Assembly (NCBI GenBank): GCA_018725565.1
Contig: QLUR01000028.1
Coordinates: 1 to 35,568, forward strand
Origin: Bacillota bacterium
GTDB lineage: Bacteria > Bacillota > Dethiobacteria > Dethiobacterales > Dethiobacteraceae
Direction: 5' to 3'
Length of the DNA stretch: 35,568 bases
Positions 11,039 to 13,999 of the stretch are shown piece after piece. Below the pieces are notes generated by a model. It was not told where the DNA came from. It saw only the letters and a program-made list of their open reading frames with translations, and searched no databases. Both the position numbers and the translations under genes were made by a program. Numbering within the stretch: the stretch's first letter is position 1; the number at the start of each line of letters is the position of its first letter.

Positions 11039-11114
11039 TGGTGCGCCTGGCAGGAATTGAACCTGCGGCCTGCGGATTAGGAATCCGTCGCTCTATCCCC
11101 TGAGCTACAGGCGC
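11039..11114 (-). tRNA. tRNA-Arg (anticodon CCT)
   Basis: The minus strand folds as a full cloverleaf: acceptor GCGCCTG with CAGGCGC, D arm GCTC/GAGC, anticodon loop TTCCTAA, T arm GCAGG-TTCAATT-CCTGC, and an encoded CCA end. Anticodon CCT reads the AGG codon. The first base pair of the anticodon stem is an A-C mismatch. It is a single gene with its own terminator. tRNA-Arg genes often serve as phage attachment sites, but I see no repeated 3' end in the window. Confidence 0.95.
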
Positions 11115-11314: not shown

Positions 11315-11866
11315 ATGGCATTGCAGCACATGATTCTGGGTTGTCTGATGGAGTTCCCAACCTATGGTTACAAAATGCTAAAGTCTATTTACCGGGACTT
11401 TTACAGCCACGGGCCGGGAGTCAATGACGGTCAGCTATATAACACCTTAAAAAAAATGGAGCGGGATGGTCTCATTACCAGGGAAACCGTCTCCCAGGAC
11501 AGGTTGCCGAATAAAAAACTCATCTATATCACCGACAGGGGCAGGGAACAATTCCTGCTCTGGCTCGGTTCCACTGAAAATGAGGAAGCCGGGGCCCGGT
11601 ACGACTTTTTCAACGAGTACCGCTTCCTGAACAAATGCAACTTCTTTAACCATCTGCCGTCCTCCGTCAGCGAAGCCAAACTGAAAATAAGGCTGGAAGA
11701 GGCGAACAAGTCACTTGACAGCCTGCTGCAGGCAAGAATTAGCATGCAGAGAAGAAAGGTTTCCAAACACAGGGCGAAAATTCTTGACTACGGCATAGCA
11801 ATGCAGAATACAAGAATCAAATGGCTGGAAGAATTCCGGGAGCTCTGGATGGAGGAAAAAAGATGA
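11315..11866 (+). CDS. PadR family transcriptional regulator
   Basis: 183 residues. The N-terminus MALQHMILGCLMEFPTYGYKMLKSIYRDF and the wing DGQLYNTLKKMERDGLITRETV form a PadR winged helix. The C-terminal half (about 85-183) is the helical Vir_reg-type dimerisation region (LKIRLEEANKSLDSLLQARISMQRRK). GGGAGG lies eight bases before ATG 11315. Its promoter contains a perfect palindrome likely to be its operator. The stop overlaps the start of the next gene (ATGA), so it is co-translated with the AAA+ chimera, which is probably its regulated partner. Confidence 0.88.
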   Translation: MALQHMILGCLMEFPTYGYKMLKSIYRDFYSHGPGVNDGQLYNTLKKMERDGLITRETVSQDRLPNKKLIYITDRGREQFLLWLGSTENEEAGARYDFFNEYRFLNKCNFFNHLPSSVSEAKLKIRLEEANKSLDSLLQARISMQRRKVSKHRAKILDYGIAMQNTRIKWLEEFRELWMEEKR

Positions 11867-12804
11867 TGACGGAAAAGCCTGAAACATTATCGCCCGAGGG
11901 CCTTAAAGAGGGCTTGGGCCGACACGGATACATTTGCGACGATAATATTGCAACGGTGCTTTTCATGGCTGAAAAGCTGGCAAAGCCGCTCTTAATCGAA
12001 GGCCCTGCCGGAGTTGGCAAAACTGAATTGGCCCGAGCCTACAGCGACTTTAAAGACCGCCGTCTGATCAGACTCCAATGTTACGAAGGTCTCGATGAGA
12101 CCAAAGCCATCTACGAATGGAACTACAAAAAACAACTCCTTTATATCCAAGCGGAAAAGGAAAACAGCAACTGGCAGGACATCGAAGGTGACATTTTCAC
12201 CAAGCAGTTTTTGCTGGCACGCCCTCTCCTTGACTCCATCACTTCACCCGAACCGGCGGTGCTGCTGGTTGACGAACTGGACAAGGTGGACCAGGAGTTT
12301 GAGGCCATGCTTCTGGAGCTTTTGGGCGACTGGCAGATTACCATCCCGGAAATCGGGACCATCCGGGCCAGGCACGCACCGGCGGTGTTTCTCACCTCCA
12401 ACCGTTCTCGCGAAATATCAGAAGCCTTAAAGAGACGCTGTCTCTACCTCTACTCGGTTGTTGACAGCAAAACCATCCTCACAGCTATGCAGTCTAAATG
12501 CCGCAGCGCCCAAAACATACGCCGCGACGGCAAAGTGATGCTGACCGTCTGCGCAGAGGGAGACGTAGCCGCCGGCATCAAAGGCAAAGCGACCATGGTA
12601 TGTGAAATGACCGCCTTCCGAGGCGGTGCCATCTTCCAAATCGACGTGCTGGAAGTCAAGGACGATTCAGCCATCGACGTGGAAGTGGTCAGCGGTGTTG
12701 TCATGAAACTGCGCAGCCCTAAATGGAAAAAAATCATAGACGCCGCGTCTGCCGAACTGGACGCCGCGGCGGGAGTGGAAAAACAGGAGAGAGTGCTAGA
12801 ATAA
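11863..12804 (+). CDS. chimera: MoxR-type AAA+ ATPase fused to split-barrel flavoprotein-like tail
   Basis: Residues 1-196 are a MoxR/CoxD-type AAA+ module: Walker A GPAGVGKT (47-54), Walker B LLVDELD (134-140), DWQITIPEIGTI, the TSNRSREISEALKRRC sensor/arginine-finger region and LYLY. There the AAA+ module stops before its C-terminal lid. The remaining about 115 residues (SVVDSKTILTAMQSKCRSAQ, GKVMLTVCAEGD, AGIKGKATMVCEM) resemble the middle and end of small PNPOx-like split-barrel proteins, whose usual form is MQ.K.T..NI....V.LTV...GYQIKG. The N-terminal strand of that barrel is missing. The joint near nucleotide 12451 looks like an in-frame deletion between two genes. The start is ATG 11863, seven bases after GGAGG. 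The VWA partner (CoxE-like) normally next to such ATPases is absent. Whether the product is functional is unknown. Confidence 0.7.
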   Translation: MMTEKPETLSPEGLKEGLGRHGYICDDNIATVLFMAEKLAKPLLIEGPAGVGKTELARAYSDFKDRRLIRLQCYEGLDETKAIYEWNYKKQLLYIQAEKENSNWQDIEGDIFTKQFLLARPLLDSITSPEPAVLLVDELDKVDQEFEAMLLELLGDWQITIPEIGTIRARHAPAVFLTSNRSREISEALKRRCLYLYSVVDSKTILTAMQSKCRSAQNIRRDGKVMLTVCAEGDVAAGIKGKATMVCEMTAFRGGAIFQIDVLEVKDDSAIDVEVVSGVVMKLRSPKWKKIIDAASAELDAAAGVEKQERVLE

Positions 12805-12886
12805 AAAATAAGTTATACAGACAGGCACGAGGGGGATGATATTGACAATACAATGTTGACAGCAGAGTAAAGATGAGGAGATGCCG

Positions 12887-13999
12887 ATGAAAAAAGTAAC
12901 AAGCAGGTCGTTTTTTGCCGGAGGGAATACATGCATTGGATTTTACTCGCTGTTCGACTACATAACTGACCTGGAAAAGTGTGACCGGCGCTTGATCATA
13001 AAAGGCGGGCCGGGTACCGGAAAGTCCACCATGATGAAGAGAATCGGCGAATTGATGGCTGAACGGGGCTTTTACACAGAATTGTTCCACTGTTCTTCGG
13101 ACAACTATTCGCTGGACGGCTTGGCGGTGCCCGATTTAGGATTTACCATCGTTGACGGGACTGCCCCGCACACCATAGATCCATCTCTTCCCGGAGCGCG
13201 TGATGAAATTGTCAACCTCGGCGACTGCTGGGACACAGGCCGGCTGCGTTGCCACAGGAAAGAAATTGCTGACCTAATGCAGCAAAACGTCTTTTTTTTC
13301 GCCCAGACCTACCAGTTTCTGCAGGAGGCAGCTGTTGTGCTTGAGAGAATACGATATCTGATGAGCGGGGCCATGGATTATGACAGCCTGTCTGAAATGG
13401 CGCGTTCGTTAGTGGCGGAAACTGTGTCAGCACTGCCTCCCGTCCAGGGAGCGCCCCGCGAGCGTCGGCTCTTTGCCGGCGCCATTACCCCGCAGGGACT
13501 GGTCAATTTTTACCCATCCATCCTGCAGGGCATCTCCTCGTTTCATTTTCTTACAGGCGACCCCGGTTCGGGAAAATCGTTTCTGCTGGAACAGATTCGC
13601 AACGCCGTACTGCAGGCAGGCTACAGTGTAGAAGTATACAATTGCGCTTTTGACCCCCAGCGGATTGACGCCGTAGTAGTTCCGGACGGCAAGGCAGCCT
13701 TCCTTAAGGACACATATCCGCACTCATTCAGTTTCAGTCCGGCAGAAAAAGGTCACTCCCGGGACACTATCGCTTTAAGCCGTTATGCCAGGCCCCGTGT
13801 CTTGAAAAATACAGCTGCCGAACGTAACGAGACCCTGGATCGCTTCTGGCAATGCGTTCACAGGGCGGTGGAAATCCTTGGCAAGGCCAAATGTGTCCAT
13901 GACCGCCTTGAGGAATTATATATCCAGTCTATGGACTTTAAGTTAGTAGCAGATAAGCAGGAGGAAGCAATAAACAATGCTTTGTCTATCACTGCTTAA
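12887..13999 (+). CDS. double P-loop ATPase (PRK06851-like)
   Basis: 370 residues with two related halves, each starting with a P-loop: GGPGTGKST (residues 40-48) and GDPGSGKSF (about 224-232). Each is followed by a segment such as FHCSSDNYSLDGLAVPDLGFTIVDGTAPH or YNCAFDPQRIDAVVVPDGKAAFLKDTYPH, showing internal duplication. This matches the uncharacterised ATPase family PRK06851 found in spore-forming Firmicutes; its function is not known. I prefer ATG 12887 because GAGGAG is then six bases away; ATG 12881 would be too close. It lies about 80 bases after the AAA+ chimera with no terminator between, so it is possibly co-transcribed with padR and the chimera. Confidence 0.75.
   Translation: MKKVTSRSFFAGGNTCIGFYSLFDYITDLEKCDRRLIIKGGPGTGKSTMMKRIGELMAERGFYTELFHCSSDNYSLDGLAVPDLGFTIVDGTAPHTIDPSLPGARDEIVNLGDCWDTGRLRCHRKEIADLMQQNVFFFAQTYQFLQEAAVVLERIRYLMSGAMDYDSLSEMARSLVAETVSALPPVQGAPRERRLFAGAITPQGLVNFYPSILQGISSFHFLTGDPGSGKSFLLEQIRNAVLQAGYSVEVYNCAFDPQRIDAVVVPDGKAAFLKDTYPHSFSFSPAEKGHSRDTIALSRYARPRVLKNTAAERNETLDRFWQCVHRAVEILGKAKCVHDRLEELYIQSMDFKLVADKQEEAINNALSITA

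Follow-up and report, generated by a model that had tools for sequence, protein, structure and literature searches.

The window analysed here is a 35,568-nucleotide stretch of DNA from a Bacillota bacterium, and at positions 11863–12804 of its plus strand it carries one open frame of 313 aa with zero stops, as a preliminary description of the locus had stated. The frame consists of a MoxR AAA+ core (residues 1–197) followed, from about nucleotide 12454, by a PNPOx-like tail, and a PadR gene lies directly upstream and overlaps its start. The closest relative of both halves was found in G004, a genome of the same family and another genus. The features of the locus are as follows:

11315..11866 (plus strand): PadR-family regulator, intact, 183 aa (Pfam PadR, E 2e-12); first gene of the cassette.
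11863..12453 (plus strand): MoxR AAA+ ATPase gene reduced to its 5' two thirds; Walker A, Walker B, sensor 1 and the arginine-finger region remain, the lid/sensor-2 domain is missing.
12446..12466 (plus strand): probable deletion junction; the MoxR similarity stops at 12453 and the similarity to the PNPOx frame of G004 restarts at 12466.
12454..12804 (plus strand): 3' part of a PNPOx-like gene, with its own reading frame kept and about the first 40–45 codons missing.

The junction had earlier been placed at about nucleotide 12451, which proved accurate to one codon: the DNA similarity to G004 breaks after 12453, and the 12 bases between 12453 and 12466 encode PNPOx-like (Y)SVVD. With regard to the surroundings, a tRNA-Arg gene (11039–11114, minus strand) ends approximately 150 bp upstream of the point where similarity to the G004 cassette sets in (11260). 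The next gene downstream (12881–13999) encodes a PRK06851-type protein with two P-loops; the G004 cassette does not include this gene, and by visual inspection G004 has a hemolysin III-like gene at that place.

A Pfam profile search matched AAA_5 to residues 42–193 (E 3e-10), and among the NCBIfam models the MadB AAA-ATPase (NF047784) matched residues 12–196 with an E value of 7e-69. The latter match covers only profile positions 5–204 of 298; hence, the C-terminal third of the MadB profile is absent. We found no literature linking the MadB name with MoxR and VWA. Of the features that mark a MoxR protein, the AAA+ core with Walker A (GPAGVGKT), Walker B (LLVDELDK) and sensor 1 is present, the catalytic motifs being intact within the fused frame, and the core extends through the sensor/arginine-finger region as previously proposed. 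Two further features are absent, namely the C-terminal lid with sensor 2 (the match to a full-length relative stops at residue 197 of 292) and the adjoining VWA partner gene, no VWA frame being found at the window locus. AAA+/MoxR ring ATPases work with their lid domain.

When the tail alone was compared with family models, the match to Pfam PNPOx (PF01243) was weak (E 0.07) and those to the NCBIfam PPOX models had E values of 0.003–0.006. Used as a query against genomes, the tail matched full-length PNPOx-family proteins of about 150–170 residues across the remaining barrel, with E values down to 3e-16, and its closest full-length relative is a clear PNPOx protein (Pfam E 6e-11). A profile was made from an alignment of these full-length relatives in which the window tail was also included; it matched residues 194–302 at model positions 40–149 of 151 with a score of 126 bits. 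Model positions 1–39 are unmatched, and therefore about the first 40–45 residues of a PNPOx protein are missing, which leaves the complete barrel, including its first strands, as the membership feature that the tail lacks. Aligning the two halves separately to their families, a check that the preliminary description had proposed, thus confirmed MoxR AAA+ on one side and PNPOx on the other, the latter without its first strands as had been suspected. A full-length PNPOx relative was also observed in a Clostridia bacterium (L036, 2110–2586, minus strand); a MoxR-VWA pair lies about 1.3 kb away on the opposite strand, with another gene between them.

The comparison with G004 places the two halves of the fused frame in separate genes. 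On a single contig and in the same orientation as in the window, G004 has, in this order, a MoxR gene, a VWA_CoxE gene (385 aa, Pfam E 1e-31) and a PNPOx-like sequence in a frame of its own. Its MoxR protein is complete, with 292 aa, and is 92% identical to that of the window over 179 compared residues; its PNPOx-like frame has 106 aa and is 80% identical to the window tail over 105 residues. At the DNA level, identity to G004 is 77% for window positions 11620–12453 and 79% for 12466–12809, and these two matching segments lie 1.4 kb apart in G004 versus 12 bases in the window. What is absent from the window relative to G004 amounts to about 1.4 kb, made up of the VWA gene and the 95 MoxR codons that encode the lid with sensor 2; relative to the PNPOx family, about the first 40–45 codons of the PNPOx gene are absent as well. 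We consider the fused frame to be a deletion-made remnant of a decaying PadR-MoxR-VWA-PNPOx cassette, with a probability of about 0.9. The ancestral cassette would have comprised a PadR regulator, a MoxR ATPase, a CoxE-like VWA protein and a PNPOx-like protein, and the lost segment, of about 1.4 kb or more, would have begun at moxR codon 198, taken in the entire VWA gene and ended within the 5' part of the PNPOx gene. What was left on either side would then have been joined in frame by luck, giving a chimeric frame of 313 codons; one such join in three keeps the frame by chance, and selection would not be required.

A search of the other contigs of the same genome did not find the lost VWA gene, the MoxR lid or the PNPOx start, nor was a second copy of this PNPOx type found in the genome. 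The best matches came from a paralogous MoxR-VWA pair on another contig (26% for the VWA protein, 40% for the MoxR lid), and a more distant MoxR occurs on a further contig. The idea that the lost parts were merely relocated was thus ruled out, only distant paralogues being present elsewhere in the genome. The same result bears on the possibility of an assembly error, by which the 1.4 kb segment would exist in the organism and have been dropped by the assembler. Such an error could be entertained for a draft of 112 contigs with 4.7% estimated contamination, but neither the lost VWA gene nor the MoxR lid was found on another contig and there is no long repeat at the junction to mislead an assembler, and we regard it as very unlikely. 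The fusion is real in the assembly and ordinary in kind, most likely a deletion scar and not a new protein.

To see whether the junction recurs, as the preliminary description had recommended, other genomes were searched, and it was unique to one genome, which supports the deletion side of the two possibilities then raised. No conserved MoxR-PNPOx fusion was present among 60 relatives, nor among the best 80 of the 585 relatives that were confirmed in the genome collection; viral contigs yielded no conserved fusion, and one relative there matched in the MoxR part only. The MoxR frames in the fetched loci reach the C-terminal region in 121 of 124 cases, a few of these loci being repeats of one place, and two of the three exceptions are the window's gene, which was retrieved twice, the third being a frame truncated by the edge of its locus. 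A VWA frame is also present in 111 of the 124 loci, and a MoxR gene with VWA behind it is the usual arrangement in relatives. Apart from the window's gene, no MoxR gene carrying the tail was found in 98 genomes of the class, where the tail search returned only the separate frame of G004 as a close match and one distant full-length relative. None was found either in 398 genomes drawn from the phylum, where the matches were only PNPOx proteins of 26–38% identity, encoded by frames as long as is usual for PNPOx.

These results weigh on the second possibility, a new and functional two-domain protein under PadR control, whose AAA+ core would act on, or together with, a half-barrel that binds a cofactor. 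The open frame without stops, the intact Walker A and Walker B motifs and the conservation of both segments relative to G004 (dN/dS of 0.03 for the MoxR segment and 0.14 for the tail) are all compatible with such a protein. However, the fusion occurs in one genome alone, the ATPase has lost its lid domain, with sensor 2, as well as its VWA partner, and the first strands of the barrel are missing, so that this proposal is left unsupported and appears highly improbable. The low dN/dS values would mostly reflect the time before the deletion, which leaves room for some use of the product; that this one lineage expresses the fused frame and has retained it as a useful lidless MoxR core with a half-barrel seems, if anything, slightly less probable still. 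Returning to the deletion, its product would most likely be non-functional as a MoxR ATPase, because the product has neither a lid nor a VWA partner, and its barrel is without the first strands. The event was probably fairly recent, since the frame is still free of stops and conservation of the MoxR part remains high, with few unusual substitutions there. The earlier suggestion of a deletion that merged two unrelated genes is accordingly supported by the separate halves in G004, with the VWA gene between them, and by the uniqueness of the fusion among the genomes searched.

The cassette of G004 is decaying too. Its PadR gene (L113, 6771–7140, minus strand) has an internal loss of approximately 240 bp that includes most of the DNA-binding domain, and the frame is broken, with a stop in the remaining part. 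Its PNPOx-like frame (L113, 4449–4805, minus strand) also lacks the first strands and starts near the third; its ATG shares bases with the stop codon of the VWA gene (TGATG). The PNPOx cuts in G004 and in the window lie no more than a few codons apart. Direct derivation of the window frame from a truncated PNPOx gene like that of G004 was considered and seems unlikely, as the 12 bases preceding 12466 agree with the end of the G004 VWA gene at only 2 of 12 positions. The same bases fit the PNPOx family pattern Y-x-x-x-D-x-K-T (YSVVDSKTIL versus FYAxDxKTLL). Because they fit the family and not the end of the VWA gene, the two truncations look like separate events; the nearness of the cuts would then be a coincidence that is explained in part only, possibly by a stretch prone to breakage.

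These observations show a MoxR-VWA cassette going to pieces in two related genomes, and they call for caution, as an open frame that joins two domains may be a fresh deletion scar, which automatic pipelines would label as a new domain architecture.

MoxR proteins are ring ATPases that act with a VWA partner, and MoxR-VWA pairs such as NorQD and RavA-ViaA are described in three papers (PMC9976466, PMC13036017, PMC10585395). With the MoxR AAA+/VWA_CoxE (PF05762) pairs of the NorQ-NorD and RavA-ViaA type the window gene shares the AAA+ core and all of its N-terminal motifs; unlike them, it has neither the lid domain nor the VWA partner gene. The PadR-MoxR order of the window is as in Desulfallas and others, the full PadR-MoxR-VWA order having been recognized by eye in Desulfallas (L033) and in a Bacillota locus (L037). 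In relation to the PNPOx-like split-barrel flavoprotein family (PF01243), the window tail aligns along most of the full-length profile, but it differs from the family in being without the first strands and fused behind an unrelated ATPase.
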